Notes under the pieces: model-generated
Database searches by the model: none
The model's input: only the letters and a program-made list of their open reading frames with translations
Told to the model about the DNA's origin: nothing
Translations under genes and position numbers: made by a program
Origin: Actinomycetota bacterium
GTDB lineage: Bacteria > Actinomycetota > Thermoleophilia > RBG-16-64-13
Reading direction: 5' to 3'
DNA length: 34,165 bases
NCBI GenBank assembly: GCA_018830645.1
Contig: JAHJSA010000103.1
Span: 1-34,165 of the forward strand
In this document: one piece after another, positions 5,893-22,211 of the stretch
Position numbering within the stretch: position 1 is the stretch's first letter
Layout: each line of letters opens with the position of its first letter

Positions 5893-6522
5893 TCACCTCG
5901 GGGGTAGATAGAAGCAGGCCGGGTCGGTGCCGAACTCCGGGTTGAGCTGGAAGCCGTACTCGCGCCGGATCAGCATGGAGACTTCGCTCTCGGGGTCTTC
6001 AAGATCGCCGAAGGTGCGCGCCTTGGCCGGGCACGATTCCACGCAGGCCGGTTTGCGTCCTTCCGCTACGCGGTCTTTGCAGTAGTCGCACTTCGTGGCC
6101 ATGCCGTACCCGTTCTTCTTCTCCCACTGCTTCTTCGCGTACGCCTCGTAGGGGTCGAGTTCACCTTCGGCGTCGGGGAAGTAGGTCTGCCAATCGCCCA
6201 CCGTCTGCCGGGCTCCGTAGGGACAGGCCATGATGCAGGCCTTGCAGCCCATGCAGAGGTTCTTGTCCACGAGCACGATGCCGTTCTCGTCCTGCGTGGT
6301 CGCCCCCGTGGGGCAGACCTCCTTGCAGGCCGGCTCTTTGCACTGCTGGCACACGAGCGGCAGCATCTGCCTCAGGGCCGTCGGGAACGAGCCCGTCTCC
6401 GCGGGCACGCACTGCGCCCAGTCGATACCTCGCGGCGTGAAGTTCGCGGCCTTGCAGGACACTTGGCAGGAGTAGCATCCGTAGCATCTCTTCAGGTCGA
6501 TGACGAAGCCGTAGCGTGGCAT
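5893..6522 (-). CDS. Four-[4Fe-4S] ferredoxin subunit of the molybdoenzyme (DmsB/PsrB/NrfC type)
   Basis: A 209-residue electron-transfer subunit that wires the molybdenum subunit to the membrane anchor. Four Cys groups are visible: C-Y-G-C-Y-S-C-Q-V-S-C near the N-terminus, C-Q-Q-C-K-E-P-A-C-K-E-V-C-P, C-M-G-C-K-A-C-I-M-A-C-P, and C-D-Y-C with a distal C-V-E-S-C-P. This is the usual set for four [4Fe-4S] clusters. The ATG at 6522 is preceded on the minus strand by GGGAGGTGAT, a strong Shine-Dalgarno, and the longer open frame upstream is ignored. There is no Tat or Sec signal, consistent with the catalytic subunit. It starts 5 nt after the catalytic gene ends. Confidence 0.93.
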   Translation of the reverse strand: MPRYGFVIDLKRCYGCYSCQVSCKAANFTPRGIDWAQCVPAETGSFPTALRQMLPLVCQQCKEPACKEVCPTGATTQDENGIVLVDKNLCMGCKACIMACPYGARQTVGDWQTYFPDAEGELDPYEAYAKKQWEKKNGYGMATKCDYCKDRVAEGRKPACVESCPAKARTFGDLEDPESEVSMLIRREYGFQLNPEFGTDPACFYLPPR

Positions 6523-6527
6523 CCCGA

Positions 6528-9161
6528 TCACCTCCCCGCGACTTTGTAGATCTTGACCTTGGCGCATGCGTCCGAGCCCTGCGTGAGCGAGTCGGTGTGC
6601 GCGAGGTCGGGATTGATGAGGTCGTCGAAGAACTGACCTTTGCCCTTCGAGATCGGCGTCCCCCTCGCCCAATGGCCGTGACACCCGGCGATCCCGATGT
6701 GCTCGGGATGCATGCCTTCCACCAGCTTCACGGGGCCCTTGATCTTGTTCCCGTCCGGATTCTCCACCCAGACCATGTCGTTGTCCTTCAACCCCTTGCT
6801 CTTGCCTGTAGTGGCGTTGATCTGCATCAGGTAGACGAAGGGGTCGTTCACCGACACCTCGTCCAGCCAGGGGTTGTTCTGGGTGGACGACTGCGTATGG
6901 AAGGAAGGCCGCCAAGAGAACGCCCAGAGATCGAAGGTCGGGTCTTCCTCTTCGTGCGAAGGGCAGGGGAACCACTCAGCCAGCGGGGTGTAGAACCGGT
7001 AGTCGGCCATGTCCTCCCGGCCGAACGAGCTGAGGAGCTTCTGGAGCTTCTTACCGCTCTCGAGGAAGAACTCGAAGTAGATCGGCACCCGCACGGGCGT
7101 GAACCACCGCCAGTACATCTCTTCCACCTTGGTGGGCCACTTCTCGAGCCCCGTCTTCTTCAGGGCTTCGAGTCCCTTGTCCGGTCCCAACCTGTCCTTG
7201 AGGACGCGATCGCTGATGTCCTGCCACGAGTAGTCCCCGCTCGGATCGAGCTTGTACTCCTCGTCCATCTCCCCGCCGTAGCGCACCGGGATGAGATCGT
7301 TGATGGCCTGGAAGTACTTGTCCTGGACGCCGAGTCCCTTGGCGATCTCCAGCATCACCTCGTTGAAGTCGCGGCGCTCGTGGAGGGGCTCCACCACCGG
7401 CTGGCGGATCTGCCAGACCCAGTGGTCCATGCCGGTGGGGTGACAGAACGTCGAGGGGAAGGTGACGCAGGGGGTGTAGCGCTCCAGGAATGAGGCGTCG
7501 GGGAGGACGATGTCGGCCACCGCCTCGGTGAACTCGTTCTGGTAGATGTTGAACGACAGCACGAAATCGAACTGCTTGAGGAAGTTCTCGGTGACGCCCT
7601 CGGCGTTGGCCATGGTCATCACCGAGTTCGAGCCGAAGTTGATCATGATCTCTGGCTCGTAGTCGATGTTGAAGTCCTTGCGGTACTTCTCCCACTCGGG
7701 CGTGCAGATCGTGAAGGCGTTGTAGACCGAGCAGGGGTACAGGTCCTGCAGGTCGAGCCGCTGCGGCGGCGCGGGCTCCCGGAGCGGGTAGGGCTTGTGA
7801 TCGTACACCCAGCCCTTGACGGTCATGAGGCCGTCCGGGCAGGCGTACGGCACAGTCTCGGGCTTCCCGGTGTCGGGGTGGCCGAAGGAGACGGGCGGCC
7901 CGTGGCCCATCGAGCCACCGGGCACGTCGGCGGCCCCGACGATGTGATTGAGCAGGTCGATCTCCAGGCAGTTCCAGCCGGAGTTCACGTGACCTTGGCT
8001 TCCCCGGAAGAAGATGGCCGCAGCGGGTCGCAGCGGGATCTCCTTGCCGTCGATCGTTATCGTTCGGCCGATCTCGGCGGCTTCGGCGAACTCGGTGGCG
8101 ATGCGGCGGATGGTAGCGGCGGGCACGCTTGAGATCTTCTCCGCCTTCTCCAGGGGATAGTTCTCCTTCACGTGCTCCTTGAGGAGCTGGAAGGCGGGCG
8201 TACATGTGGTGCCGTCCACCTCAAATGTGCCCTCGAGCGCGTAGTCCTCGATGGTCGGGTCGTCGAAGGTCTTGGCCCGGCCGGCCTTCGGATCCCAGAT
8301 GAGAGGCTTGTTGGTCTCGGGATCCCTCTTGTAGTGCTGATCGGGCCGGATAAGGTACGGAGCGTTCGTCTTCAACTTGAGATAGGGGGCGTCCCAGATG
8401 CCGAGCTCGTTGAGGATCACGTTGATCATGCCGAGCGCGACGGCTCCGTCGGTACCGACGCGGATGGGCACCCATTCGTGCGCTTTGGAGGCCTGAGTGG
8501 AGAGGAACGGGTCGAACACCACCGCCTTCATCCCGCGGGCCCGGGCGTCGGCCGCCCACTGGGCGCTCTGCAGGGCCGCGTGCCCCGCGCCGTGTCCCTT
8601 CGAGCAGCCGAAGTACAGCGTGTACTTGTTGTAGTTCCAATCCGGGATGATCGACCAAGCGGCGTGCATGATGCCGTTCATGAAGTGGGCGCCGTTGCCG
8701 CACCAGAGGCCGCCGCCGGATACCCAGTAGTTCTTGAAGCCCCACGCCTTCATGAAAGCGGGGACGGCGAAGCGGATCTCGCTGGTCTGCACCGTGGTGG
8801 CCTGGAAGTAGGTGCCCCTCGGGTCCTTCATGTTCCTGAACTTCTCGAAGATCGTCTCGTAGGCCTCTTCCCACGAGATCCGCTCCCACTTGGGGTCGAC
8901 GCCCACCCCTTTCTCGGGGTTGGTGCGCTTGACCGGGTAGTTCACGCGATAGCGGTCGTAGAGCGTCATCAATTGCGCGGTGCCCTTCGCGCAGATCCGT
9001 CCGCTGCCGGCGGGGGTCTCGGGATTCCCCTCCAGCTCGACGATGACGCCGTCGACGCGGTGGGCCCGGATGCCGCACTGCGCGTAGCATCCCCCGCACG
9101 ATGTGTTGATCCACACATCTTCTTTCACGTTCGGTTCCTGCACGGTCGTCGTTGTGGCCAT
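6528..9161 (-). CDS. Molybdopterin oxidoreductase catalytic subunit, DMSO reductase superfamily
   Basis: An 877-residue Mo/W-bis-PGD enzyme. Near the N-terminus C22-x2-C25-x3-C29 and C57 form the [4Fe-4S] site of the family, with C-A-K-G after the last Cys. C154, in L-W-C-G-N-G-A-H, is a candidate metal ligand by position. The C-terminal segment has the molybdopterin dinucleotide-binding fold. No twin-arginine signal is present from the chosen ATG at 9161 (GGGAG 5 nt upstream), nor in the open frame further upstream, so the enzyme should face the cytoplasm. Cytoplasmic relatives with this three-subunit plan include sulfite-oxidising SoeABC. Polysulfide or thiosulfate reductases, acetylene-hydratase relatives and anaerobic dehydroxylases share the architecture. 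Substrate is not decidable here; TusA- and DsrE-like genes next door favour a sulfur compound. Confidence 0.9.
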   Translation of the reverse strand: MATTTTVQEPNVKEDVWINTSCGGCYAQCGIRAHRVDGVIVELEGNPETPAGSGRICAKGTAQLMTLYDRYRVNYPVKRTNPEKGVGVDPKWERISWEEAYETIFEKFRNMKDPRGTYFQATTVQTSEIRFAVPAFMKAWGFKNYWVSGGGLWCGNGAHFMNGIMHAAWSIIPDWNYNKYTLYFGCSKGHGAGHAALQSAQWAADARARGMKAVVFDPFLSTQASKAHEWVPIRVGTDGAVALGMINVILNELGIWDAPYLKLKTNAPYLIRPDQHYKRDPETNKPLIWDPKAGRAKTFDDPTIEDYALEGTFEVDGTTCTPAFQLLKEHVKENYPLEKAEKISSVPAATIRRIATEFAEAAEIGRTITIDGKEIPLRPAAAIFFRGSQGHVNSGWNCLEIDLLNHIVGAADVPGGSMGHGPPVSFGHPDTGKPETVPYACPDGLMTVKGWVYDHKPYPLREPAPPQRLDLQDLYPCSVYNAFTICTPEWEKYRKDFNIDYEPEIMINFGSNSVMTMANAEGVTENFLKQFDFVLSFNIYQNEFTEAVADIVLPDASFLERYTPCVTFPSTFCHPTGMDHWVWQIRQPVVEPLHERRDFNEVMLEIAKGLGVQDKYFQAINDLIPVRYGGEMDEEYKLDPSGDYSWQDISDRVLKDRLGPDKGLEALKKTGLEKWPTKVEEMYWRWFTPVRVPIYFEFFLESGKKLQKLLSSFGREDMADYRFYTPLAEWFPCPSHEEEDPTFDLWAFSWRPSFHTQSSTQNNPWLDEVSVNDPFVYLMQINATTGKSKGLKDNDMVWVENPDGNKIKGPVKLVEGMHPEHIGIAGCHGHWARGTPISKGKGQFFDDLINPDLAHTDSLTQGSDACAKVKIYKVAGR

Positions 9162-9423
9162 CTCGTCTCCCATCGCGTGCCTCGACACGCCTCGACACCA
9201 GAAGCGGGACCTGCGGACTGTTCGATGTTCGGTGGGACGATACCCGTGGAGGCGCGGCCGGGTGCCGGCGCCCGTGCTGACCCGCTCGACAGAGCGAAAA
9301 CGTATCATGATGCTGCCGCCAGGGGCAAGAATCCGGGGGCAGTGCTTCACAAGCGGCCAACCCGGGAACACTCCTAACCAACAAGGACAATCATCTTCCA
9401 CTTTCCCCCCTGTGAGGTCCACT
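9162..9423. promoter_or_regulatory. Divergent intergenic region, molybdoenzyme versus sulfur operon
   Basis: This 262-base gap must contain promoters for both directions. A GC-rich near-palindrome GGGTGCCGGCGCCC (9260-9273, one mismatch) lies centrally and may be an operator or hairpin. GAGGT at 9414-9418 is the likely ribosome-binding site of the TusA-like gene. I find no convincing -35/-10 pair. Confidence 0.3.
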
Positions 9424-9666
9424 ATGAGCAACGTACGGTCACCCGAGGAGTCCCTCGACTGCATAGGCCTGATGTGCCCCGAGCCGCTGTTCCAGACGCG
9501 TGAGGCGATGGACTCATTGCAGGTAGGGGAGGTCCTCGAGGTGCTTGCCGACGACCGGGCCGCGGAAGAAGACCTCACCCGGTTCGCGAAACGGGCCGGT
9601 CACGAGTTGATCTTGGTTGAAGACCAGGGAGACCACCAACGGTTCCTGATTCGCAAAGGACGCTAG
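9424..9666 (+). CDS. tusA: TusA/SirA-family sulfurtransferase
   Basis: An 80-residue sulfur carrier. The signature L-D-C-I-G-L-M-C-P-E-P-L-F places the catalytic persulfide Cys at residue 18 in the C-P-x-P motif, as in TusA. An additional Cys13 precedes it. TusA-like proteins accept persulfide sulfur from cysteine desulfurases and hand it to DsrE-type partners, tRNA-thiolation enzymes or sulfur-oxidation complexes. The start at ATG 9424 has GAGGT upstream and gives the family's normal length. A DsrE-family gene follows after 11 nt and an IscS-like gene after that, so it opens a sulfur-transfer operon divergent from the molybdoenzyme. Confidence 0.88.
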   Translation: MSNVRSPEESLDCIGLMCPEPLFQTREAMDSLQVGEVLEVLADDRAAEEDLTRFAKRAGHELILVEDQGDHQRFLIRKGR

Positions 9667-9677
9667 GAGACGATGTC

Positions 9678-10040
9678 ATGAAGGACGAGAACGCCATCCT
9701 GTACGTGCAGACCAGCAGCGACCCCGCGCGCCAGTACTCTCCACTGGTACTTGCGCAGGCGGCCAAGGCTATGGACCTCGATCCCACGGTGTACTACCTG
9801 GGCATGGGCCTGGTGACGCTTCGGCCCGGCGAGGCCGAGAAGATGCAGCTCGGCTCGTTTCCGAGCGTGCGCGAGATGATAGACAAGACCTTGGCGATGG
9901 GTATTCCGATCCTCGTGTGCGAGGCGTCGAAGCAGATGCTCGGATGGGATACCGTGGAGCTCATCGACGGAGTCAAGATCGTGGGAGCGGCAACGCTCAA
10001 CGACCTCGCGCTCGACGCCGGCGCGACGATGTGGTTCTAG
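9678..10040 (+). CDS. DsrE/DsrF-family sulfur carrier protein
   Basis: A 120-residue single-domain protein of the DsrE-like fold. The N-terminal I-L-Y-V-Q-T-S-S-D-P-A-R strand-and-turn, the central helix and the I-L-V-C-E-A-S-K segment with the conserved Cys81 match small DsrE/F-like proteins that carry sulfur as a persulfide. TusA followed by DsrE is a known pairing in sulfur-oxidising and sulfur-relay loci. A specific subfamily cannot be assigned by eye. It lies 11 nt from tusA and 11 nt from the iscS-like gene. Confidence 0.82.
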   Translation: MKDENAILYVQTSSDPARQYSPLVLAQAAKAMDLDPTVYYLGMGLVTLRPGEAEKMQLGSFPSVREMIDKTLAMGIPILVCEASKQMLGWDTVELIDGVKIVGAATLNDLALDAGATMWF

Positions 10041-10051
10041 GCGGGCCGCGT

Positions 10052-11278
10052 ATGGACTCCCCCGCCACCCGCGACGCCGCCATCGCCGACGCGGCGGCGG
10101 CCGGCCCCGCCACTTCCCGCGAGGTCTACCTCGACTATCAGTCGGCCAAGCCCGTCGACCCCCGGGTCGTCCAGACGATGCTGCCCTTCTTCACGGAGCG
10201 GTTCGGGAACCCGGCCGCGCTTCACACCGTGGGGGATCGTGCCACGGAAGCACTGGAGGAGAGCCGGGCCGCCGTCGCGTCCTTCATCGGGGCGCAGCCT
10301 GAGGAGATCGTGTTCACCTCGGGTGCGACCGAATCGAACAACCTGGCGCTCATCGGCTATGCGAACCGCAACAAGCGCACGGGCGACCATGTGATCATCT
10401 CCGAGGTCGAGCACATTTCGCTGCACAACATCGGGAAGCACTTGGAGAAGGAGGGCTTCCGGGTGACCAAGGTGCCGCCCGACCAGTACGGACGCATCAA
10501 CCCCCAGAAGCTCCGCGCCCGCATCACCGACGACACCATCTTGGTCTCTGTGGGGTGGGCGAGCAGCGAGATCGGAACCGTGCAACCTATCCTGGAGATC
10601 GCCGAGATGCTGCGCGGCACCGGGGTGGCGCTGCACGTGGACGCGGTGGCCGCCGAGGGCCTGCTGCCCATCGACATGGCGGCGGTCCCAGTGGACCTCC
10701 TGACGATCTCGAGCAACGACATCTACGGCCCGCCGGGGTTGGGAGTGCTCTACATCCGCAAGGGGACACGCCTGGCGGCTGTCACCATGGGCGGTGGACA
10801 AGAGCGGGGGCTGCGGTCGGGCACCGAGAACATGCCCGCCATCGTGGGTATGGCCGCCGCCGCCCGCATCGCCGGAGAGGAGCTGTCCGCGGACGCGGCG
10901 AGGCTCACCGCCATGCGTGATCGCCTCATCAGCGCCGTGCTCTCGACCATCCCCGACTCGCACCTCAACGGTCACCCGGTCGAGCGACTGCCGAACAACG
11001 CGCACTTCCGCTTCGAGGGCATCGAGGGCGAATCCCTGCTGCTCTCCATGAGAGACGAAGGCGTCTGGGTCTCGACGGGGTCGGCCTGCTCTTCGAAGAC
11101 CCTCGCCCCCTCGCACACACTCATCTCGTGCGGCCTGCTCCACGAAGAGGCCCACGGCTCGCTCGAGTTCACGTTCGGACGTTTCAGCCAAGAAGACGAT
11201 GTCGACCGCGTCATGGAGGTCCTGCCGGGGGTCGTCTCCCGCCTTCGACGTATGTCGCCGCTCTACCAGAAGATCTAG
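10052..11278 (+). CDS. iscS: IscS/NifS-like class V aminotransferase lacking the PLP lysine
   Basis: A 408-residue protein of the cysteine desulfurase family. The fold is well preserved: Y-L-D-Y-Q-S-A-K-P near the start, F-T-S-G-A-T-E-S-N-N-L-A, the E-V-E-H motif, H-V-D-A-V, the G-G-G-Q-E-R-G-L-R-S-G-T-E phosphate-binding loop, and the mobile sulfur loop S-T-G-S-A-C-S-S-K. However, where active enzymes read S-x-H-K-x-Y-G-P, this one reads S-S-N-D-I-Y-G-P, so the Schiff-base lysine is Asp223 (codon 10718-10720). A Lys-to-Asp change here is known to me from Archaeoglobus fulgidus IscS, which still works with IscU in cluster assembly. Here too an IscU gene follows directly. Ordinary cysteine desulfurase activity should be absent or very low. 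Confidence 0.92.
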   Translation: MDSPATRDAAIADAAAAGPATSREVYLDYQSAKPVDPRVVQTMLPFFTERFGNPAALHTVGDRATEALEESRAAVASFIGAQPEEIVFTSGATESNNLALIGYANRNKRTGDHVIISEVEHISLHNIGKHLEKEGFRVTKVPPDQYGRINPQKLRARITDDTILVSVGWASSEIGTVQPILEIAEMLRGTGVALHVDAVAAEGLLPIDMAAVPVDLLTISSNDIYGPPGLGVLYIRKGTRLAAVTMGGGQERGLRSGTENMPAIVGMAAAARIAGEELSADAARLTAMRDRLISAVLSTIPDSHLNGHPVERLPNNAHFRFEGIEGESLLLSMRDEGVWVSTGSACSSKTLAPSHTLISCGLLHEEAHGSLEFTFGRFSQEDDVDRVMEVLPGVVSRLRRMSPLYQKI

Positions 11279-11299: not shown

Positions 11300-12115
11300 A
11301 TGAAGTCCACCCAGTATTCCGAGAAGACGCTCGACCACTTTCGCAATCCCCGCAATGTGGGTTCGCTCGAAGGAGACGACGTAGCCGTGGGACGGGTGGG
11401 CAACCCCGTGTGCGGCGATCTTATGGAGATGTACGTGCGGGTCAAGGATGATCGCGTCGACGAGATCAAGTTCCTCACCTTCGGATGCGGTTCCGCGGTG
11501 GCCACGTCAAGTATGGTGACCGAGCTGGTCATCGGGAAGACGCTCGACGAGGCGCTCGAGGTGACCCGAGCCGACGTGGCCGACGCGCTCGACGGACTCC
11601 CGCCGGTGAAGATGCACTGCTCGAACTTGGCCGCCGACGCCCTGCACGACGCCGTCAAGAACTGGCGTTCGGGCACGCGGCTCAAGCCGCTGGGCGAGGA
11701 AGAGATCGCGGCTGCGGGCGGGGGTTGCGGGGTGCGCGAGGTCACCGTCGTGGAAGGCGCCACGGAGTACGCCGGCACGGGAGTCTACACGGCCGTCGAT
11801 GACATCTCGGTCCTCGCGGATGCCCGCGTGCTCGTGCCCGACAAAGGGGTGGAGTCGGCCCGGCTTGCCCTCGCACTTACCGAAGTCACCCCTCGGGTGA
11901 TCTTCGTCACCGAGCTCAAGGCGCTCGATCTCCCCGAAGAGGTCGCTACGCAGGTGAAACGCTCCGACGTCAAGGTGCTGTTCCAATCACGCCTGCTTGC
12001 CGTGCGCGGTGAGGGTGAGGTCGAGAAGGTGCTCATCCGCGATCTAGATGAGGACGACGAGTACGAGCTGTTCGTCGACGCGGTGGTGCTGTTGGGCCGC
12101 CAGGGCTCTCAATGA
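11300..12115 (+). CDS. iscU: IscU/NifU-type scaffold fused to a thioredoxin-reductase-like domain
   Basis: A 271-residue protein. Residues 1-125 are a complete IscU domain: G-N-P-V-C38-G-D40, F-G-C63-G-S-A and P-P-V-K-M-H-C107-S supply the three Cys ligands and the conserved Asp. After a linker with G-G-G-C-G, residues of about 155-271 resemble the NAD(P)-binding half of thioredoxin reductase: the strand V-L-F-Q-S-R-L-L-A-V-R-G-E-G, then V-E-K-V-L-I-R and L-F-V-D-A-V-V-L-L-G. The nucleotide-binding glycine motif is degenerate (V-L-V-P-D-K-G). The domain may therefore be a structural or docking module rather than a reductase. It lies 21 nt after the iscS-like gene and is clearly its partner. 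The identity of the C-terminal part is by visual resemblance only. Confidence 0.88.
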   Translation: MKSTQYSEKTLDHFRNPRNVGSLEGDDVAVGRVGNPVCGDLMEMYVRVKDDRVDEIKFLTFGCGSAVATSSMVTELVIGKTLDEALEVTRADVADALDGLPPVKMHCSNLAADALHDAVKNWRSGTRLKPLGEEEIAAAGGGCGVREVTVVEGATEYAGTGVYTAVDDISVLADARVLVPDKGVESARLALALTEVTPRVIFVTELKALDLPEEVATQVKRSDVKVLFQSRLLAVRGEGEVEKVLIRDLDEDDEYELFVDAVVLLGRQGSQ

Positions 12116-13777: not shown

Positions 13778-15592
13778 ATGAACGTCGCCGTCTACCTCTG
13801 CCAGGAGAACCCAGACGCCGGCGGGGGGGTGAATCTCGACTCTGTCGCCAAGTACGCGGCCAACCTCACCGAGGTGACGCAGGTAAGGTCGCTGGGCGTG
13901 CGGCCGAAGCTCCTGCCGGAATCACTGGCCGTCGAGATCGGTCAGCAGAGCTTTGACAGGCTGGTCATAGCCGGGGACACGCCGGGGTACTTCAAGCCCG
14001 CCTTCACCCGTGCCATGCTGCTCGCCGGCCGGGATCCGGGGGAGGTGCGGTTGGCGTCGTTCCGGCAGCACGGGGCCATCTCGTTGGACGAGACCGAGCG
14101 GGCGAAGGCCATCGTCGCCTGTGCGGTCAGCGGCGTCCCTTTCTGGCTCGCGGCCGTACCGAAGTTCACCACCGTCCACGCCGACACGCTTGTCATCGGC
14201 GGAGGGGTGGCGGGGATGCAGGCGGCCCTGGAGATCGCGGATGCGGGCAAGCATGTGTACCTGGTCGAACGGACCGGCACCATCGGGGGCCACATGGCTA
14301 TGTTCGATAAGACCTTCCCCACCCTGGATTGCGCCGCGTGCATCCTGACTCCGAAGATGGTGGCCGTCGCGCAGCACGAGATGATCGACCTTCTCACCTT
14401 GAGCGAGGTCGAGGCGGTGGCCGGGGTGCCGGGCGACTACCGGGTGACGATCCGTCGGCAGCCACGCCGCGTAGACCAGGATGCCTGCGTTACGTGTGGC
14501 GACTGCGCGGCGGCCTGTCCGGTGACGGTACCGAGTGAGTTCGATTGCGGCATCGCGTCGCGCACATCCATCTACATGCCTTTTCCCCAGGCGGTCCCCA
14601 ACACGTACCTCGTGGACGAAGCCTCCTGTAGGTACGTGCTGTCGGAAGGCACGAAGTGCGGGGTGTGTGCCCGCAAGTGTCCCAAGGAGTGCATCGATCT
14701 CGACGAGGTGGTGGAGAGGGCCGAGGTCGAGGTGGGCAGCATCGTTCTCGCTACGGGCTACGACGTCTACGACGCCGCCCTCATCGAGCGGTACGGCTAC
14801 GGGGTGTATCCCAACGTGCTGACCGCTCTTGAGTTCGAGCGGCTCACGAACGCCTCGGGACCCACCGGAGGTCGGATCGTGACCCAGACTCTGCAGCACG
14901 ACAAGCGCGCCAAGGCCGACGTTTGGGTGTTCGACCCGGCCGGTGAGGCGCCCCGCAGCGTGGCCATCGTGCATTGCGTCGGGTCCCGGGACCACAACCA
15001 CAACTCGTATTGCTCGCGGGTGTGCTGCATGTACTCCCTCAAGTTCGCCCATCTGGTGAAGGAGAAGCTTCCCGATGCGGAGTGCTACGAGTTCTACATC
15101 GACATGCGGGCCTTTGGGAAGGGCTACGAGGAGTTCGCGGAGCGAATCAAGCAGGAGGGGACCTTCGTGGTGCGGGGTCGGTCGGCCAAGGTCACCGGCG
15201 CCGATGGCCGCCTGTTGGTGCGGGGCGAGGACATCCTGAGCGAGACCCTGCTCGAGTTCCCGGTGGACATGGTGCTACTCGCTGTTGGACTGGTTCCGGC
15301 CCACGGGTCGGATCTGCTCGCCACGCTGCTGGGTGTGGACAGCGACTCGGACGGATGGTTCAGTGAGCTCGACTACAACGGTGATCCCACCGACACGGAG
15401 CGGGGCGGGGTGTTCGTCGCGGGTGCCTGTCAGGGACCCAAGGACATCCCCGACACAGTCGCCCAGGCCTCAGCTGCGGCCGCGGGGGTTCTGAAGAGCA
15501 TCGCGAGCGGGCGGGGCTACGGCAGCCTGAGCGGCCTTGTGTTGAGCGACATCGAGGCGCGGGCGCGGGAGCTGGCTGGGAAGGGGGTCTGA
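13778..15592 (+). CDS. HdrA/QmoA-like FAD and Fe-S flavoprotein
   Basis: A 604-residue member of the heterodisulfide reductase subunit A family. After an N-terminal domain of about 130 residues that I do not recognise, V-I-G-G-G-V-A-G (139-146) is the FAD-binding motif, followed by the family stretch F-P-T-L-D-C-A-A-C-I-L-T-P-K-M. An inserted ferredoxin part has C237, C240, C243, C247 and C284, C294, C297, C301, enough for two [4Fe-4S] clusters. H-C-V-G-S-R and Y-C-S-R-V-C-C-M match the conserved HdrA core, and the end has G-A-C-Q-G-P-K-D-I-P-D. HdrA proteins are the flavin hub of electron bifurcation, and QmoA is the quinone-linked relative. Start ATG 13778 has AGGGGAG upstream. It is the first gene of a seven-gene coupled operon. 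Confidence 0.9.
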   Translation: MNVAVYLCQENPDAGGGVNLDSVAKYAANLTEVTQVRSLGVRPKLLPESLAVEIGQQSFDRLVIAGDTPGYFKPAFTRAMLLAGRDPGEVRLASFRQHGAISLDETERAKAIVACAVSGVPFWLAAVPKFTTVHADTLVIGGGVAGMQAALEIADAGKHVYLVERTGTIGGHMAMFDKTFPTLDCAACILTPKMVAVAQHEMIDLLTLSEVEAVAGVPGDYRVTIRRQPRRVDQDACVTCGDCAAACPVTVPSEFDCGIASRTSIYMPFPQAVPNTYLVDEASCRYVLSEGTKCGVCARKCPKECIDLDEVVERAEVEVGSIVLATGYDVYDAALIERYGYGVYPNVLTALEFERLTNASGPTGGRIVTQTLQHDKRAKADVWVFDPAGEAPRSVAIVHCVGSRDHNHNSYCSRVCCMYSLKFAHLVKEKLPDAECYEFYIDMRAFGKGYEEFAERIKQEGTFVVRGRSAKVTGADGRLLVRGEDILSETLLEFPVDMVLLAVGLVPAHGSDLLATLLGVDSDSDGWFSELDYNGDPTDTERGGVFVAGACQGPKDIPDTVAQASAAAAGVLKSIASGRGYGSLSGLVLSDIEARARELAGKGV

Positions 15593-16743
15593 TGGCCACG
15601 CGGGTGAATCCCAAGCTCATCGACGACCTGGAGCAGTACGGCGCCGAGGACGTCTCGAAGTGCTACCACTGTGGTAATTGCTCGGCGGCGTGTCCCTTCT
15701 CTCAGGGGTCCCGCATCTTTCCGAGGAAGTCCATGCGCCACCTGCAGCTGGGCCTGGAGAAGCGGCTGGAGGGAGATCTTGAGCCCTGGCTCTGCTACTA
15801 CTGTGGGGAGTGCTCCGACGAGTGTCCCCGCGAAGCCGAGCCCGGTGAGACCATGATGAGCCTGCGGCGATGGCTGACCTCCCGGTACGACTTCACCGGC
15901 ATCTCCCGGCTCTTCTACCGCTCCTGGAAAGCGGAGCTCGCGGCCGTCTTGCTCGTGGCTCTCCTTACCGCGATCGGGTTCCTGCTGCTCGGTTTCTTAG
16001 GTGGGGACATCCGTATCTACGATGGCCCAGGCGCGTTTCTTCCGAGCCATGTGGTGCACTGGTTCGACTGGGCGATGGCCGGAGTGCTCGTGATCCTCTT
16101 GTCCATCAACTGCGTCCGCATGTGGTGGTTCACCCTGGGGAGGGAGGGGCGCGAGAGCGGCACCCATGTGCCCCTGCGCGAGTACATAGCCCGGGCGTAC
16201 CTGCTCCCGTTCCATTTCATCACCCAGGCGCGCTACAGTCGGTGTGAGCGCAAACGTCCATGGCTGGTACACCTGGTCCTGATGTTGAGCTACCTGACCA
16301 TGCTGGTGCTCATCATGTTCTTCCTCGAGTCCATGCAGTCGGGGCCGGAGATCGACTGGCGGGTGCACGCCTTCGGGTACGCCGCGGCCGTGGGGTTGGT
16401 GGCGACCACCGCCTACGCGATGTGGGGCCGCGCGAAGCGCGCGGAGGCGCAGTACAGGCACTCTCACGAGTCCGATTGGATCTTCCTCATCCTGCTCTTC
16501 GTTGTGGCCGGCACTGGAGTCCTCCAGCACATCCTACACCGCGCCGACCTCGAAGTGGCCGCGAACATCGCCTACGTGGTGCACTTGATGGGTGTCGTAC
16601 CCATGCTGGTGTTGGAGGTGCCCTTCAGCAAGTGGGCCCACCTGGCCTACCGCCCGCTGGCCATGTATTTCGCCGAACTGCAACTGCGTGCGGTCCCTTC
16701 GAGAGCGCCTGCCGAGACCGCGCGACCCGCCGCGACGAGCTGA
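15592..16743 (+). CDS. qmoC: QmoC-like membrane subunit: HdrC ferredoxin domain plus cytochrome-b-like domain
   Basis: A 383-residue protein. The cytoplasmic N-terminus carries two Cys sets, C24-x2-C-x2-C-x3-C34 and C68-x2-C-x2-C-x3-C78, like HdrC. From about residue 115 there are five to six hydrophobic helices with paired His residues (for example V-V-H-W-F-D-W, P-F-H-F-I-T-Q, W-L-V-H-L and V-V-H-L-M-G) of the HdrE/NarI type that can hold heme b. Fusion of the two parts in one chain is the hallmark of QmoC, which links the soluble flavoproteins to menaquinone. The ATG overlaps the upstream stop by one base. It is the only membrane protein of the operon and so decides where the complex sits. 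Confidence 0.9.
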   Translation: MATRVNPKLIDDLEQYGAEDVSKCYHCGNCSAACPFSQGSRIFPRKSMRHLQLGLEKRLEGDLEPWLCYYCGECSDECPREAEPGETMMSLRRWLTSRYDFTGISRLFYRSWKAELAAVLLVALLTAIGFLLLGFLGGDIRIYDGPGAFLPSHVVHWFDWAMAGVLVILLSINCVRMWWFTLGREGRESGTHVPLREYIARAYLLPFHFITQARYSRCERKRPWLVHLVLMLSYLTMLVLIMFFLESMQSGPEIDWRVHAFGYAAAVGLVATTAYAMWGRAKRAEAQYRHSHESDWIFLILLFVVAGTGVLQHILHRADLEVAANIAYVVHLMGVVPMLVLEVPFSKWAHLAYRPLAMYFAELQLRAVPSRAPAETARPAATS

Positions 16744-16754
16744 GGGAGGACGCC

Positions 16755-18533
16755 ATGGACCAGCCCAGAATCGGCGTCTACGTGTGTGCCTGCGGCACCA
16801 ATATCGCAAAGGTGGTGGACTGCGACGCAGTGGTGCGCGCGGCTGAAGGGCTCCCCGGGGTCGCGGTGGCCACCACCTACAAATACATGTGCTCCACGCC
16901 CGGACAGGAGATGATCGTCGCCGACATCGAGGAGAAGAAGCTGGATAGGGTCGTGGTGGCCTCGTGCTCGCCGCGTATGCACGAGCTCACCTTCCGGAAG
17001 GCCGTCAAGAAGGCCAGCATGAACCAATACTACCTGCAGATGGCCAACATCCGCGAGCACTGCAGCTGGGTGCACGGCGACGGCGTCGAGGCCACCCAGA
17101 AGGCCATCGGCCTGGTGCGCGCCGCCGTCAAGCGGGTCGCCTTCCACGAGCCCCTCGAAAGTCGCATGGTGGCCATGTGTCCGAACACCTTGGTGCTGGG
17201 TGGGGGCATCGCGGGCCTCACCGCGGCGTTGGAGCTGGCGGACGCGGGCTACCAGGTGTACCTGGTGGAGAAGGCGGACCATCTAGGCGGCAACCTGGCT
17301 CGGGTTGACCTCACGGCTCCGCACCTGGACTCGGCCCGGGATCTCTTGCGTGAGCGGATCCACCGGGTGATGGGTCACCCCCATGTCGAGCCGTTCCTCG
17401 GCGCCGAGGTGCAGTCGCTGGAGGGATACGTGGGGAACTTCACGGCCACGGTGGCCGTGCCGGGGGGCAACGGCGCCGGGCCTGCCGCGGCTGAGGGTGA
17501 CGACGGGCCGACGGACGGGGGAGGTGCCACGCGATCGCCACGGACCCTCGAGGTCGGGAGCGTCATCGTCGCCACCGGCTATCGCGAGTTCGACGCCTCG
17601 CGCATCACCCACTTCGGCTACGGCAAGCTGCCGAACGTCATCACGTCGTTCGAGTTCGAGCGGATGGTGCGGGAGGGGCGCATCGAGACGGTGGAGGGCC
17701 GGCAACCCCAGTACGTCGCCATCCTGCACTGCGTCGGCAGCCGGAGTCAGGAGTTCCACGCCTACTGCTCGCGGGTCTGCTGCATGACCGCCCTCAAGTA
17801 CGCTCACGAGTTGAAGTCCGCCGTCCCCGGCTGCTACGTCAGCGACGTGTACATCGACATGCACGCCTTCGGCAAGGGCTGCGAGGACTTCTACCGCCGG
17901 AGTTCCGAGGTGAAGACGCTCTTCCTCATGTATGGAAAGAACGACTACCCGGTGATCCGAAAGGCGGAGCCGGGGGACGACTGTGGGATGCTGATCGAGG
18001 TGAGCGAGCAGCTCTCGGGTGAGCTCATCGAGATCCCCGCCGACCTGGTTATCCTCATGGTGGGGATGGAGGCCCGGGAGGACTCCGCCGAGGTCGCCCG
18101 TCTGGTCGGCATCAGCCAGGACAAGGACGGATGGTTCATCGAGAGCCACCCGAAGCTCGATCCTGTGGCCACGACCACCGAGGGGGTCTTCATCGCCGGC
18201 ACGTGCGCGGCCCCCAAGGACATCCCCGACTCGGTGGCTCAGGCTCGGGCCGCCGCCGCCCGCATCCTGGGCAAGATCGCCAGGGGGAGCATCGAGGTGG
18301 ACGCCGTCTTCGCCGAGATCGACGAGGAGGCGTGCTCGGGGTGTCGCATCTGCAACGAGCTCTGCCCTTACAGCGCTATCGAGTACAAGGCAGACGAGAA
18401 ACGGAGCCGGGTCATCTCGGCTCTCTGCAAGGCGTGCGGCGCGTGTGTGGCGGCCTGTCCGTCCGGTGCGATCAGGGCTCGACACTTCACAGACGAGCAG
18501 ATCTTCGCCGAGATCGTGGGGGTGCTGGCATGA
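16755..18533 (+). CDS. Second HdrA-type flavoprotein, QmoB/HdrA-like
   Basis: A 592-residue protein. The N-terminal 130 residues have the HdrA-specific domain (G-V-Y-V-C-A-C-G-T-N, Y-K-Y-M-C-S-T-P-G-Q-E, A-S-C-S-P-R-M-H-E). L-G-G-G-I-A-G (148-154) binds FAD. At the C-terminus two ferredoxin motifs, C527/C530/C533/C537 and C558/C561/C564/C568, give two [4Fe-4S] clusters. Unlike the first HdrA paralogue, it lacks the ferredoxin insertion in the middle and instead has a Gly/Ala/Asp-rich linker around residues 236-258. QmoB proteins combine this architecture with a C-terminal MvhD-like part; here MvhD is a separate gene overlapping by 4 nt. Start ATG 16755 follows GAGGGAGG. Confidence 0.9.
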   Translation: MDQPRIGVYVCACGTNIAKVVDCDAVVRAAEGLPGVAVATTYKYMCSTPGQEMIVADIEEKKLDRVVVASCSPRMHELTFRKAVKKASMNQYYLQMANIREHCSWVHGDGVEATQKAIGLVRAAVKRVAFHEPLESRMVAMCPNTLVLGGGIAGLTAALELADAGYQVYLVEKADHLGGNLARVDLTAPHLDSARDLLRERIHRVMGHPHVEPFLGAEVQSLEGYVGNFTATVAVPGGNGAGPAAAEGDDGPTDGGGATRSPRTLEVGSVIVATGYREFDASRITHFGYGKLPNVITSFEFERMVREGRIETVEGRQPQYVAILHCVGSRSQEFHAYCSRVCCMTALKYAHELKSAVPGCYVSDVYIDMHAFGKGCEDFYRRSSEVKTLFLMYGKNDYPVIRKAEPGDDCGMLIEVSEQLSGELIEIPADLVILMVGMEAREDSAEVARLVGISQDKDGWFIESHPKLDPVATTTEGVFIAGTCAAPKDIPDSVAQARAAAARILGKIARGSIEVDAVFAEIDEEACSGCRICNELCPYSAIEYKADEKRSRVISALCKACGACVAACPSGAIRARHFTDEQIFAEIVGVLA

Positions 18534-19087
18534 ACGAGGATCGCCCGACCGTGGCGGACCTTCCGACCGTGGCGGACCTTCCGACCGTGGCCGACGACCA
18601 GACCGCCGCCAGGGTCGATCGGCCGGCCCGGCGTGCGCCGACGGGTGCCGCGGGGTCGTTCCAGCCGCGAATCGTCGGGTTCCTGTGCAACTGGTGCTCC
18701 TACGCCGGCGCCGACCTCGCCGGCACGAGCCGCACCCCCTACGCCGCTTCCGTTCGGGTGATACGGGTGATGTGCTCGGCCCGCATCGACCCGACGTTCG
18801 TGCTGAAGGCCCTCGCCGAGGGAGCGGACGGAGTGCTCATCTGCGGCTGCCATCCGGGCGACTGCCATTACTCCGAGGGCAACTACAAGACCATGCGCAG
18901 GTACCCTTTGCTCAAGCGGATGCTGGCCGATCTCGGCATCGAGGACGCGCGGGTGCGGCTCGAGTGGGTGAGCGCCAGCGAAGGGCAGCGCTTCGCCGAC
19001 CTGGTGGACGACATGACGCAACGACTGCGTGCCCTCGGCCCCAGCAGGATCAAGACCGCCCTGGCTACCGATCACGCGGAGAGGTGA
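18530..19087 (+). CDS. mvhD: MvhD-like iron-sulfur subunit linking hydrogenase to HdrA
   Basis: A 185-residue protein of the F420-non-reducing hydrogenase delta-subunit family, which carries a [2Fe-2S] cluster and bridges MvhG to HdrA. Conserved features are F-L-C-N-W-C-S-Y-A-G-A-D, V-M-C-S-A-R-I-D-P and I-C-G-C-H-P-G-D-C-H-Y. The first 45 residues are an extra low-complexity extension with a tandem repeat (P-T-V-A-D-L units) not typical of the family. The ATG overlaps the previous stop (ATGA), and the frame has an internal Shine-Dalgarno GGAGAGGTGAG at its end serving mvhG. Alternative starts inside the extension are possible. Confidence 0.9.
   Translation: MNEDRPTVADLPTVADLPTVADDQTAARVDRPARRAPTGAAGSFQPRIVGFLCNWCSYAGADLAGTSRTPYAASVRVIRVMCSARIDPTFVLKALAEGADGVLICGCHPGDCHYSEGNYKTMRRYPLLKRMLADLGIEDARVRLEWVSASEGQRFADLVDDMTQRLRALGPSRIKTALATDHAER
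18545..18594 (+). repeat. 18-bp tandem repeat within the mvhD 5' end
   Basis: The unit CCGACCGTGGCGGACCTT occurs twice exactly (18545-18562, 18563-18580) and a third time partially (18581-18594). It encodes P-T-V-A-D-L repeats and preserves frame, so copy number could vary without harming the gene. Confidence 0.9.
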
Positions 19088-19090
19088 GTC

Positions 19091-20056
19091 ATGGGCGGGC
19101 GGAAACTGCAGATAGCGCTGTACTGGGGAGCGGGGTGCGGTGGTTGCGACGTCGCCGTGCTGGACACCAACGAGTTCATCCTCGACGTGGCCGCGCTCGC
19201 CGACATACGGCTCTGGCCGATCGCTGTGGACGGCAAGTACCGAGATGTGGAGGAGATGGCCGACGGGGAGCTCGATCTCACTCTGTTCAACGGAGCCGTG
19301 CGCAACTCCGAGAACGAGCACATCGCCCGGCTTCTGCGCCGGAAGAGCAGGCTGCTGGTGGCCTTCGGCTCGTGCGCTCACATGGGGGGCATCCCGGGGC
19401 TGGCCAACTTGGCGACGAAGGAAGAGATCTACGATCGCGCCTACCTCCACAACCCTTCCATCGAGCCGGGCAACACTACGGTTCCCCTGGCGCAGACGTC
19501 GGTGAACGGCTACTCGCTCGAACTGCCTCGCTTCTACCAGCGGGTATTCAAGCTCGACGATGTCGTCGATGTGGATTACTACCTGCCGGGATGCCCTCCG
19601 GCGGCCGACCAGGTGCGGGCCGTCCTTGAGGTGATCGTCTCCGGGGTCCTTCCGCCGAAGGGGTCGGTGGTGGGCGCCGGGGACCGGGGCCTCTGTGACG
19701 AGTGCACGCGCACCAAGGCCGAGAAGAAGATCAAGGAGTTCAGGCGTCCTTGGCAGATCATGGCCGATCCGGAGGCCTGCCTCTTGGAGCAGGGGATCCT
19801 GTGCGCCGGGCCGGCCACGCGCTCGGGGTGCGGCGCGCGCTGCCCGACGAGCAGCATCCCCTGCCGGGGGTGCTACGGGCCCATGCCGGGGGTGGTCGAC
19901 CAAGGTGCGAAGCTGCTCTCGGCCGTGACCTCGGTCATCGACAGCAAAGACCCGGACGAGATCGATGCCATCCTCGCCGGCCTTCCCGACTTCACCGGCT
20001 ACGCTTATCGCTTCAGCCTCCCGGCCTCTCTTCTGCAAAGGAGCGTCCGGTCATGA
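19091..20056 (+). CDS. mvhG: [NiFe] hydrogenase small subunit, MvhG type
   Basis: A 321-residue electron-transfer subunit. The proximal-cluster Cys are C16 and C19 in Y-W-G-A-G-C-G-G-C-D, then F-G-S-C-A-H-M-G-G and L-P-G-C-P-P. A C-terminal Cys-rich region (L-C-D-E-C, E-A-C, G-I-L-C, S-G-C-G-A-R-C, P-C-R-G-C-Y-G-P) supplies the medial and distal clusters. Absence of a twin-arginine signal shows a cytoplasmic enzyme, as in group 3c. It starts 3 nt after mvhD and overlaps mvhA by 4 nt. It passes H2 electrons from the NiFe site in MvhA to MvhD. Confidence 0.93.
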   Translation: MGGRKLQIALYWGAGCGGCDVAVLDTNEFILDVAALADIRLWPIAVDGKYRDVEEMADGELDLTLFNGAVRNSENEHIARLLRRKSRLLVAFGSCAHMGGIPGLANLATKEEIYDRAYLHNPSIEPGNTTVPLAQTSVNGYSLELPRFYQRVFKLDDVVDVDYYLPGCPPAADQVRAVLEVIVSGVLPPKGSVVGAGDRGLCDECTRTKAEKKIKEFRRPWQIMADPEACLLEQGILCAGPATRSGCGARCPTSSIPCRGCYGPMPGVVDQGAKLLSAVTSVIDSKDPDEIDAILAGLPDFTGYAYRFSLPASLLQRSVRS

Positions 20057-21519
20057 CCAGAAAGATCACCATCGACCCCATCACCCGGCTCGAGGGCCAC
20101 GGCAAGATCGAGGTGTTCCTCGATGACGACGGGGCCGTCCAGGAGACGTTCTTCCAGATCCCCGAGCTGCGGGGCTTCGAGCGCTTCGTGGTGGGGAGAC
20201 CCATCGAGGAGCTGCCCCGCCTGGTGACCCGCATCTGCGGAGTCTGTCCGGCCAGCCACCACATGGCGAGCGCCAAGGCGGTCGACGGCTGCTTCGGTGG
20301 CGAGGTGGCGCCCCTCGCGGTGAAACTGCGCCGCATGTACTACAACGCCCACTACATGCACAGCCACATCGCCCACTTCTACGCGCTGGCGGCGCCGGAC
20401 TTCGTCATGGGCCCGGACTCCGATCCCGCCGAGCGCAACATCCTGGGGGTGGTGGGCAAGGTGGGCCTCGAGATCGGGGGCGCGGTCATCAAGGCCCGGG
20501 GCCAAGCGCAAGAGATCCAGCGCATCATCGGAGGGCGCAGTACCCAGGACATCTGGTGTATACCGGGCGGGGTGGCGAAGGGGCTGAAGCCCGAGGAGCT
20601 CGAGCAGATCAAGCCCATGACCCGGGAGCTCCACGACTTCGCCCTGTTCTCGCTCCAGCTCTTCCGCGACGTGGTGCTGGGCAATCCGGCCTACGTGGAG
20701 CTGATCGTGAACGGGCCATACACTCTGGACGTTCACAACATGGGTCTGGTGGACGAGTCGAATGCTCCCGACTTCTACGACGGCCAGGTGCGGGTGGTGG
20801 ATTTCGAGGGGACGGAGCTCTACCGCTACGAGCCACGGGAGTATGCCGACTATGTGGCCGAGCACGTGGAGTCGTGGTCGTACCTCAAGTTCCCGTACTT
20901 GAAGAAACGGGGTTGGAGGGGCTTCGCGGAGGGCATCGACTCCAGCTTGTACTGCGCCACCCCGCTGGCGCGGCTGAACGTAGCGGACCGCATGGCCACG
21001 CCCAAGGCCCAGGAAGCCTTCGAGGAGATGTTCTCGACGCTGGGCGGCCACCCGTGCCGGGCGCTGCTGGCCCAACACTGGGCTCGGCTCGTCGAGATGG
21101 TTCAGAACTCCGAGGCGCTACTCTCCTATTGCGATGATCCCGAGATCACGGGCGACGCTTTCCGGGTGATACCCCAGGAGATCACGGGGGAGGGCGTGGG
21201 GATCGTGGAAGCCATGCGCGGCACCCTCACGCACCACTACACCTGTGACGCCCGGGCCATCTGTACCAGCGCCAATCTCATCGTGGGCACCACCAACAAC
21301 AACGCACCCATCCAGATGGTTACGAAGAAGGTGGCCCAGGCGATGATCAAGCCCGGCGTGGAGCCTGACCAGGGCGTGCTCAACATGATCGAGATGGGGT
21401 TCCGGGCCTTCGACCCGTGTTACAGCTGCGCCACCCATGCCCTGCCCGGCGAGATGCCCCTGGAGCTGATCGTCTGGAGGGACGGTGAAGTGTGGCGCCG
21501 GGTGCGGCGGAACTGTTAG
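20053..21519 (+). CDS. mvhA: [NiFe] hydrogenase large subunit, MvhA type (group 3c)
   Basis: A 488-residue catalytic subunit. The N-terminal Ni ligands are C62 and C65 in R-I-C-G-V-C-P-A-S-H-H, and the C-terminal ligands are C456 and C459 in D-P-C-Y-S-C-A-T-H. Both pairs are intact, so an active NiFe site is predicted. The 26 residues after His462 form the tail that a maturation protease removes; that protease is encoded next. The start overlaps the mvhG stop (ATGA). The enzyme would oxidise H2, or evolve it in reverse, in the cytoplasm, with electrons leaving via MvhG and MvhD to the HdrA-like proteins. Confidence 0.95.
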   Translation: MTRKITIDPITRLEGHGKIEVFLDDDGAVQETFFQIPELRGFERFVVGRPIEELPRLVTRICGVCPASHHMASAKAVDGCFGGEVAPLAVKLRRMYYNAHYMHSHIAHFYALAAPDFVMGPDSDPAERNILGVVGKVGLEIGGAVIKARGQAQEIQRIIGGRSTQDIWCIPGGVAKGLKPEELEQIKPMTRELHDFALFSLQLFRDVVLGNPAYVELIVNGPYTLDVHNMGLVDESNAPDFYDGQVRVVDFEGTELYRYEPREYADYVAEHVESWSYLKFPYLKKRGWRGFAEGIDSSLYCATPLARLNVADRMATPKAQEAFEEMFSTLGGHPCRALLAQHWARLVEMVQNSEALLSYCDDPEITGDAFRVIPQEITGEGVGIVEAMRGTLTHHYTCDARAICTSANLIVGTTNNNAPIQMVTKKVAQAMIKPGVEPDQGVLNMIEMGFRAFDPCYSCATHALPGEMPLELIVWRDGEVWRRVRRNC

Positions 21520-22211
21520 GGTCGGGGCGCCCCTGGGACCCCGGGAGCGGCACGGGCCGGTGTGTGCCTGCCGGTCTGCGGACCGTCGTCCTCGGTATGG
21601 GCAACCCGATCGTGAGCGACGACGCTATCGGTATACGTCTGGCCACCGAGTTCGGGCGTCGACTCGCCGCGGCTCGGGCGGCCGCGCCTACATTGGCCCC
21701 GGCCGCCCACGGGAGGGCGGAGGAGTCCGCGACCGTAGGCGGACCGCTTGATGTGCCCGCGATCGCAGGCGGGCCGCCGCACGGCCCCGAGATAGGGCCG
21801 GTGCACGTGATCGAGGAGTGCGCCTGCGGGGGGCTCAGTATCTTGGACATGGTGGTCGGATACGACCGGCTGATCGTGCTCGACGCCATCAAGACACGGG
21901 GGGGCGCGCCGGGCACCTGGTACGAGCTCACCGCCGGCGATCTGCGCGAGACCCTGCATCTTCGCAACGTGCACGATGTCAACCTGGCCACCGCCCTCGC
22001 CCTCGGCCGGCGCTTGGGCTTGCACCTGCCCGCCGATGCGCGGGTCCACATTTTCGCCGTCGAGGTCGAGGACGTCTGCACCTTCGCCGAGACCATGACC
22101 CCGACGCTGGAAGCTGCGTACCCTGAACTGGCCGAGGAGATCTACCGCCGAGTCATGGCCCTTCTGGAGTCGGGGAGTGAGGCAGAGGGGGCGGGAGGTG
22201 CGGCGATCTGA
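21492..22211 (+). CDS. Hydrogenase maturation protease (HyaD/HycI family)
   Basis: A nickel-dependent endopeptidase, 239 residues from GTG 21492, that trims the MvhA C-terminus. T-V-V-L-G-M-G-N-P-I-V-S-D-D-A-I-G-I-R is the family signature, with the metal-binding acidic residue in S-D-D. The second site is I-E-E-C-A-C-G-G instead of the usual D-G-G-T, and a His lies in N-V-H-D-V-N-L. Family members are about 150-170 residues; this one has an Ala/Gly/Pro-rich insertion of about 50 residues after the first helix. GTG 21492 has GGAGGG upstream and overlaps mvhA by 28 nt. GTG 21564 would give a more usual N-terminus and is an alternative. Confidence 0.88.
   Translation: MAPGAAELLGSGRPWDPGSGTGRCVPAGLRTVVLGMGNPIVSDDAIGIRLATEFGRRLAAARAAAPTLAPAAHGRAEESATVGGPLDVPAIAGGPPHGPEIGPVHVIEECACGGLSILDMVVGYDRLIVLDAIKTRGGAPGTWYELTAGDLRETLHLRNVHDVNLATALALGRRLGLHLPADARVHIFAVEVEDVCTFAETMTPTLEAAYPELAEEIYRRVMALLESGSEAEGAGGAAI

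Follow-up and report, generated by a model that had tools for sequence, protein, structure and literature searches.

The IscS/NifS homologue encoded in the window (the whole stretch of 34,165 nt that was analysed) carries aspartate at the position of the PLP-binding lysine, and it was found to belong to a clade whose genes lie, in many anaerobic bacteria and archaea, in a conserved cassette with genes for the sulfur carriers TusA and DsrE and for the scaffold IscU. These genes follow one another in the order TusA, DsrE, IscS(Asp) and IscU, one strand being used throughout, and comprise the following features:

9424–9666, + strand: TusA-family sulfur carrier with an LDCxGLxCPEP motif (Pfam TusA PF01206, E 1.1e−24); its start ATG at 9424 was picked by eye
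9678–10040, + strand: DsrE/DsrE2-like sulfur carrier, 120 aa (Pfam DrsE_2, E 2.5e−13; DsrE, E 6e−12)
10052–11278, + strand: Asp-form IscS/NifS homologue without the PLP lysine, 408 aa (TIGR03402; phmmer to 4eb5)
10649–10651, + strand: Ala200, at the position of a conserved Gln (E. coli Gln183; alignment)
10718–10720, + strand: codon GAC for Asp223, aligned with the PLP lysine (Lys206 in E. coli; codon read and alignments)
11087–11089, + strand: Cys346, retained in 44/44 Asp forms; the cysteine of persulfide formation and cluster ligation (Cys328 in E. coli, Cys321 in A. fulgidus)
11165–11167, + strand: Glu372, at the position of the substrate-carboxylate arginine (E. coli Arg354; alignment)
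11300–11680, + strand: IscU/NifU scaffold domain (Pfam NifU_N, E 1.5e−45)
11681–12115, + strand: C-terminal extension of IscU with the fold of a thioredoxin-reductase NADPH subdomain (profile match, AlphaFold2, VIA-align)

Active site of the Asp-form IscS

To begin with, the 408-aa open reading frame was intact, running from ATG at 10052 to the stop codon at 11276–11278, and its product showed full-length sequence and fold homology to the class I cysteine desulfurases (IscS/NifS), with 452.8 bits against the NCBIfam model FeS_nifS (TIGR03402), which is under the cut-off of 530.75, and with phmmer matches to IscS chains. The best structure match was A. fulgidus IscS (4eb5, E 2.1e−136, 55% identity), which likewise reads SSNDIYGP, and the second-best, 4r5f, was the same protein with SSNKIYGP. 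Residue 223 lies within ISSNDIYGPPGL, and its codon is GAC in the window sequence. When aligned to the solved IscS chains, Asp223 fell on the PLP lysine (SSNDIYGP in the query vs. SGHKIYGP in E. coli), so the Schiff-base lysine of class I cysteine desulfurases is missing, and no substitute lysine at the PLP site, as could have undermined the sequence-only reading, appeared in these alignments with active and A. fulgidus IscS. Both the aspartate at the lysine position and the same change in A. fulgidus IscS, as claimed by that reading, were thus confirmed, as was the retention of the phosphate-binding loop (TSGATES) and of the catalytic cysteine loop (GSACSSK). The C-terminal RLRxxSPLY end was also retained.

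The loss was found to extend beyond the lysine when 44 Asp forms were aligned with 38 sequences of other forms, the two sets being cleanly split by four active-site positions (200, 222, 223 and 372). Position 200 was Ala in 44/44 Asp forms and Gln in 38/38 others, position 222 was Asn in 44/44 and His in 38/38 (E. coli IscS His205), position 223 was Asp in 43 of the 44 and Lys in 37 of the 38, with one His, and position 372 was Glu, Gln or Leu in 44/44 and Arg in 38/38. In particular, the conserved PLP-site Gln and the substrate-carboxylate Arg are replaced in the window protein by Ala200 and Glu372, the role of Arg354 being presumably that of a carboxylate binder, as in the SufS homologue. 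On the other hand, His121, Asp197 and Cys346 were retained in all 44 Asp forms, the last being the invariant, persulfide-forming cysteine of the flexible loop. Neither the cofactor linkage nor the substrate anchor thus survives in the Asp forms, with the sulfur-handling cysteine kept, and since the Schiff-base Lys, the PLP-site Gln and His and the carboxylate-holding Arg are all replaced, the Asp form is most likely unable to perform normal PLP desulfuration.

A cysteine-retaining class of the A. fulgidus kind, as anticipated from the window alone, was borne out by these residues. The A. fulgidus IscS-IscU structures (4eb5, 4eb7 and 4hvk, and the Lys-restored 4r5f) share the Asp, the Ala for Gln, the lost substrate Arg, the kept Cys and the IscU partner, so that Asp for Lys, a kept Cys and an IscU neighbour are common to both proteins, which fall in the same clade. 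Owing to the Lys-to-Asp change, A. fulgidus IscS is reported to be without desulfurase activity, and its Cys is a ligand of the [2Fe-2S] cluster on IscU (PMC7585200, PMC9769115), in agreement with the complex described in the sequence-only reading. A continued role as a PLP-dependent enzyme, binding PLP without the lysine or via another residue and using different chemistry or another substrate, is considered very improbable. In its favour, Asp197, His121 and the phosphate loop (TSGAT) persist, and PLP is included in the drawing of the A. fulgidus complex in PMC9769115, by analogy with which PLP binding need not vanish with the Schiff-base lysine; against this, the loss also takes in the Gln and the substrate Arg, no conserved Lys occurs at the site, and A. 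fulgidus IscS is reportedly inactive (PMC7585200).

Distribution and phylogeny of the Asp clade

A search for close relatives yielded 14 genomes with orthologues of at least 65% identity, all of which read S[SA]ND, while the more distant paralogues examined all read [GA]HK. Furthermore, 80 loci were obtained in a single scan across 84,980 species genomes, with N-D in 79 and N-A in one. The latter (L079, 10001–11164) was the sole member of the Asp clade among the 80 with Ala for Asp (SSNAFYGP), and the aspartate at 223 may, given this sequence, be non-essential. The dN/dS values of the window gene against five relatives were 0.09–0.18, so the gene is not decaying, as had been asserted of its undamaged frame. 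Although the catalytic lysine is lost, a decaying pseudogene or a sequencing error can practically be dismissed, given that the change is common to 79/80 loci and that these dN/dS values are low.

The bacterial loci came from Actinomycetota, Deltaproteobacteria, Syntrophobacterales, WOR-3, Aminicenantes, Eisenbacteria and Aerophobetes, and the archaeal ones from two records titled Euryarchaeota and from Asgard lineages (Thor-, Loki-, Hel- and Sigynarchaeota). In maximum-likelihood trees, all the Asp forms appeared on one side of one branch, both with 44 sequences (support 99/97) and in an enlarged tree with 55 Asp forms including archaeal ones (98/90), from which the Asp form appears to be of single origin; by the dN/dS values it is under purifying selection. 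Moreover, the IscS sequences of bacteria and Asgard archaea with fused IscU formed one clade (100/100) with A. fulgidus outside, and bacterial and archaeal members were interleaved within it, as expected from transfer. The proposal of a distinct class was therefore supported by the conserved Asp clade, but its occurrence in a bacterium is nothing exceptional, as many bacterial phyla and archaea carry it. The Asp form as such is already known from A. fulgidus and reportedly from Methanosarcina acetivorans IscS1, which is described as likewise without the catalytic lysine (PMC7585200).

Two other sequences departed from His-Lys. A Thorarchaeota genome (L175, G085:C101) encodes an IscS homologue in which His replaces the PLP lysine (DAHHIHGPKG) and the Gln and the substrate Arg are kept; it sits on a long branch adjoining the Asp clade. 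A class-V aminotransferase-family protein (L239, G069:C54:48634–49746) has Asn-Ile at the His-Lys positions (FSGNIGLMGPP) and is possibly another lysine-less member.

The cassette and its partner proteins

Neighbours were counted only at loci with sufficient flanking DNA. Among these testable loci, TusA lay upstream of the Asp form in 76 of 77, DsrE accompanied it in 64 of 78 (absent from 14/78), IscU lay downstream in 76 of 79, and the fused IscU domain was present in 71 of 75. All four features occurred at 55 loci, DsrE alone was missing at 14, and L086 was the only locus with none of TusA, DsrE, IscU or the fused domain. As a control, 20 loci of the other forms were taken (19 Lys and one His), 18 of them from genomes that also have the Asp form. 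TusA, DsrE and the fused domain were found at none of these (0/20) within about 4 kb, contig permitting, and IscU was beside 18 of the 20. The link of the class to TusA and DsrE, suggested by the sequence-only reading, was upheld by these proportions.

In addition, an unfused archaeal DsrE-IscS(Asp)-IscU arrangement was found in 14 genomes of the phylum to which the L075 record belongs, with an IscU of about 122–147 aa without the extra domain. TusA was present in 12 of these 14 loci, the contig ending too early in the other two, while neither TusA nor DsrE was found beside 13 loci of the Lys form from this phylum. The Asp form is thus associated with TusA and DsrE more widely than it is with the IscU fusion.

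With regard to the carriers, TusA has the CPxP motif (CPEP in the window), whose Cys and both Pro were invariant in 76/76 neighbours, and an extra Cys five residues before the CPxP Cys was found in 72/76. The window TusA (9424–9666) shows Arg where all 76 aligned neighbours have Pro (DDRAAEED vs. DDPAAEED). For DsrE, the sulfur-carrying cysteine of the family corresponded to Cys81, found in 63/63 sequences. The modules of sulfur oxidisers (e.g. Metallosphaera cuprina) also have TusA and DsrE side by side with their cysteines conserved, but these modules are tied to Hdr-like oxidation genes and not, as here, to IscS(Asp) and IscU. Transfer of sulfur groups from DsrE-type proteins to TusA is documented (PMC4175335).

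The scaffold part of IscU keeps Cys38, Asp40, Cys63 and Cys107, invariant in 50 sequences, and its residues 6–127 matched A. fulgidus IscU with Z 21.3 (VIA-align on the AlphaFold2 model). Unlike the window protein, A. fulgidus IscU (153 aa) has no C-terminal domain, and A. fulgidus IscS branches outside the fused clade. The additional domain was found in bacteria and Asgard archaea, and a profile built from 39 C-terminal extensions gave matches among the thioredoxin reductases and the type-2 ferredoxin-NADP reductases, of which 2zbw scored best (E 6.7e−16, hmmsearch). The AlphaFold2 model of the fused IscU had a mean pLDDT of 88.3, a pTM of 0.52 and a flexible linker, and residues 147–269 matched many thioredoxin reductases with Z of about 19 over about 122 residues (VIA-align). 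The NADPH-subdomain fold is therefore common to the extension and these reductases, but the extension lacks the FAD domain, and neither GxGxxG/A in the expected stretch, nor CxxC after the IscU part, nor HRR was found in any of the 71 fused proteins (0/71), so that the redox CxxC and the NADPH-binding GxGxxG that define a thioredoxin reductase are both missing. Given these missing motifs, a redox or NADPH role is unlikely, and we infer that the domain is most likely a docking module rather than a redox enzyme.

The wider neighbours of the cassette vary from lineage to lineage. The gene for a solute-binding protein, whose start overlaps the IscU stop codon in the window, was found elsewhere only at L043, non-adjacent there, and was not considered part of the unit. 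In the window, genes for an HdrA-like protein, a QmoC/HdrC-like protein, a second HdrA-like protein, FlpD, [NiFe]-hydrogenase-like small and large subunits and a HycI-type protease lie in a row at 13778–22211; by its gene content, this row would represent, in an actinobacterial relative, a bifurcation cluster of the Hdr-Mvh-like kind. On the minus strand at 5893–9200, divergently from the tusA operon, lie genes for a molybdopterin oxidoreductase and a ferredoxin-like partner, resembling the PhsA/DMSO-reductase type. As almost none of the molybdoenzyme or Hdr/Qmo/hydrogenase genes recur in the 80 loci, they were treated as chance neighbours, and a functional tie between them and the cassette was rejected.

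At eight loci, mostly of WOR-3 (L078, L083, L089, L093, L097, L101, L113 and L114), the cassette lies in iron- and redox-stress surroundings, with flanking genes for rubrerythrin, ferritin-like, flavodiiron, ferredoxin-thioredoxin reductase, glutaredoxin and FeoB proteins. At two archaeal loci (L212 and L231), TusA lies beside IscS(Asp) with no neighbouring IscU, one adjoining a lipoyl-ligase-like gene and the other a radical-SAM gene; the small reverse frames near them gave no Pfam match. These two loci hint at a dedicated client, for example lipoyl synthesis. More generally, the cassette might not serve Fe-S assembly at large but a dedicated client (lipoyl synthesis or redox-stress enzymes) or a sulfide/persulfide buffer, to which both the lipoyl-ligase-like and radical-SAM neighbours and the stress genes around the WOR-3 loci would be suited; yet the near-constant partner is an IscU with all its cluster ligands and the wider surroundings depend on the lineage, and this explanation is considered improbable.

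Sulfur source and significance

The conserved operon is most simply read as a relay in which sulfur would reach Cys346 via TusA and DsrE, not from cysteine, and pass on to IscU. We lean slightly towards a catalytically dead IscS/NifS-fold dimer that would act as a persulfide way-station and as a docking place for IscU, the direction and chemistry of the sulfur flow being what we infer from the observed operon. Sulfane sulfur would be mobilised elsewhere, from sulfide, polysulfide, thiosulfate or a separate desulfurase, and a Lys-form desulfurase, where the genome has one, could itself feed TusA. TusA, usually with DsrE, would then carry the sulfane sulfur to Cys346 of IscS(Asp), from which it would reach the fused IscU for formation of a [2Fe-2S] cluster there; Cys346 could also ligate this cluster. 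The four altered active-site positions, the invariant carrier cysteines, the single origin, the operon, its unfused archaeal version and the lack of TusA, DsrE and the fused domain at the 20 control loci count in favour of such a way-station, as do the reported properties of A. fulgidus IscS, the documented DsrE-to-TusA transfer and the docking of both TusA and IscU on E. coli IscS (PMC2854127), while the 14/78 loci without DsrE and the many genomes with a normal desulfurase, which is a possible real sulfur source, count against it. A flow from TusA to IscS is, moreover, the reverse of the direction in E. coli, which also speaks against a way-station. The carriers could instead serve IscU directly, bypassing Cys346.

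A less probable but appreciable alternative is that IscS(Asp) merely holds IscU and lends Cys346 temporarily as a cluster ligand, with sulfur entering as HS−, and that the two carriers, TusA and DsrE, protect the site or else scavenge sulfur or deliver it for another use. A. fulgidus IscS has been viewed in this way in print (PMC7585200); under anaerobic conditions, Fe-S assembly on E. coli IscU can be fed by sulfide with no IscS present (PMC13015791), and the SMS system uses sulfide (PMC12192291). However, TusA at 76/77 Asp-form loci and at 0/20 control loci is left unexplained by a sulfide-fed scaffold.

With respect to the remainder of the genome, contig 71 of the organism of the window encodes a Lys-form NifS adjoining an unfused IscU, contig 76 encodes a SufS-like protein, and neither SufB nor SufD was found. 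The coexisting Lys-form NifS/IscU implies that this organism is not free of cysteine desulfurase. A second full-length IscS/NifS was found in 12/14 of the Asp-form relatives as well. SUF was present in 9/25 named genomes and absent from 16/25. Thus, neither a fixed pairing with SUF, absent here and from these 16, nor the Asp form as a marker of desulfurase-free genomes, contradicted here and in most of the 25 others, was retained. The Helarchaeal genome G077 showed no IscS-like protein other than the Asp form, in a metagenome assembly that may be incomplete. From this gene content, the cassette is, in most of these organisms, an addition to cysteine-based assembly and not its replacement.

For the SUF-like minimal system, use of sulfide has been shown, with no sulfur carrier known. 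Like the window cassette, MIS has a two-part core of IscS-like and IscU-like proteins (MisS/MisU), to which the cassette adds TusA, DsrE and the fused domain. MIS is described with a cysteine desulfurase (PMC12192291), an activity that should be absent here because the window protein lacks the required residues. Neither the TusA-DsrE-IscS(Asp)-IscU cassette nor the IscU fusion was found described in the full-text literature searched, most subscription journals lying outside the search.

Finally, these results bear on how Fe-S clusters are built without cysteine sulfur in sulfide-dwelling anaerobes, for which the conserved four-gene unit is a concrete and testable candidate for an ISC-type route. 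The A. fulgidus protein is no lone oddity, given this conserved class, and the annotation of Asp forms as cysteine desulfurases is very likely wrong. The Asp form shows what remains of IscS when selection keeps only sulfur handling and docking. The broader proposal, held with somewhat less than even confidence, is that of a cysteine-independent Fe-S machine of bacteria and archaea in which TusA and DsrE would load a dead IscS that passes sulfur to an adaptor-bearing IscU, reversing the flow from IscS to TusA. If true, it would stand alongside ISC, NIF, SUF, MIS and SMS as a parallel route, and its IscU adaptor domain would be a new one, derived from the NADPH subdomain of thioredoxin reductase.
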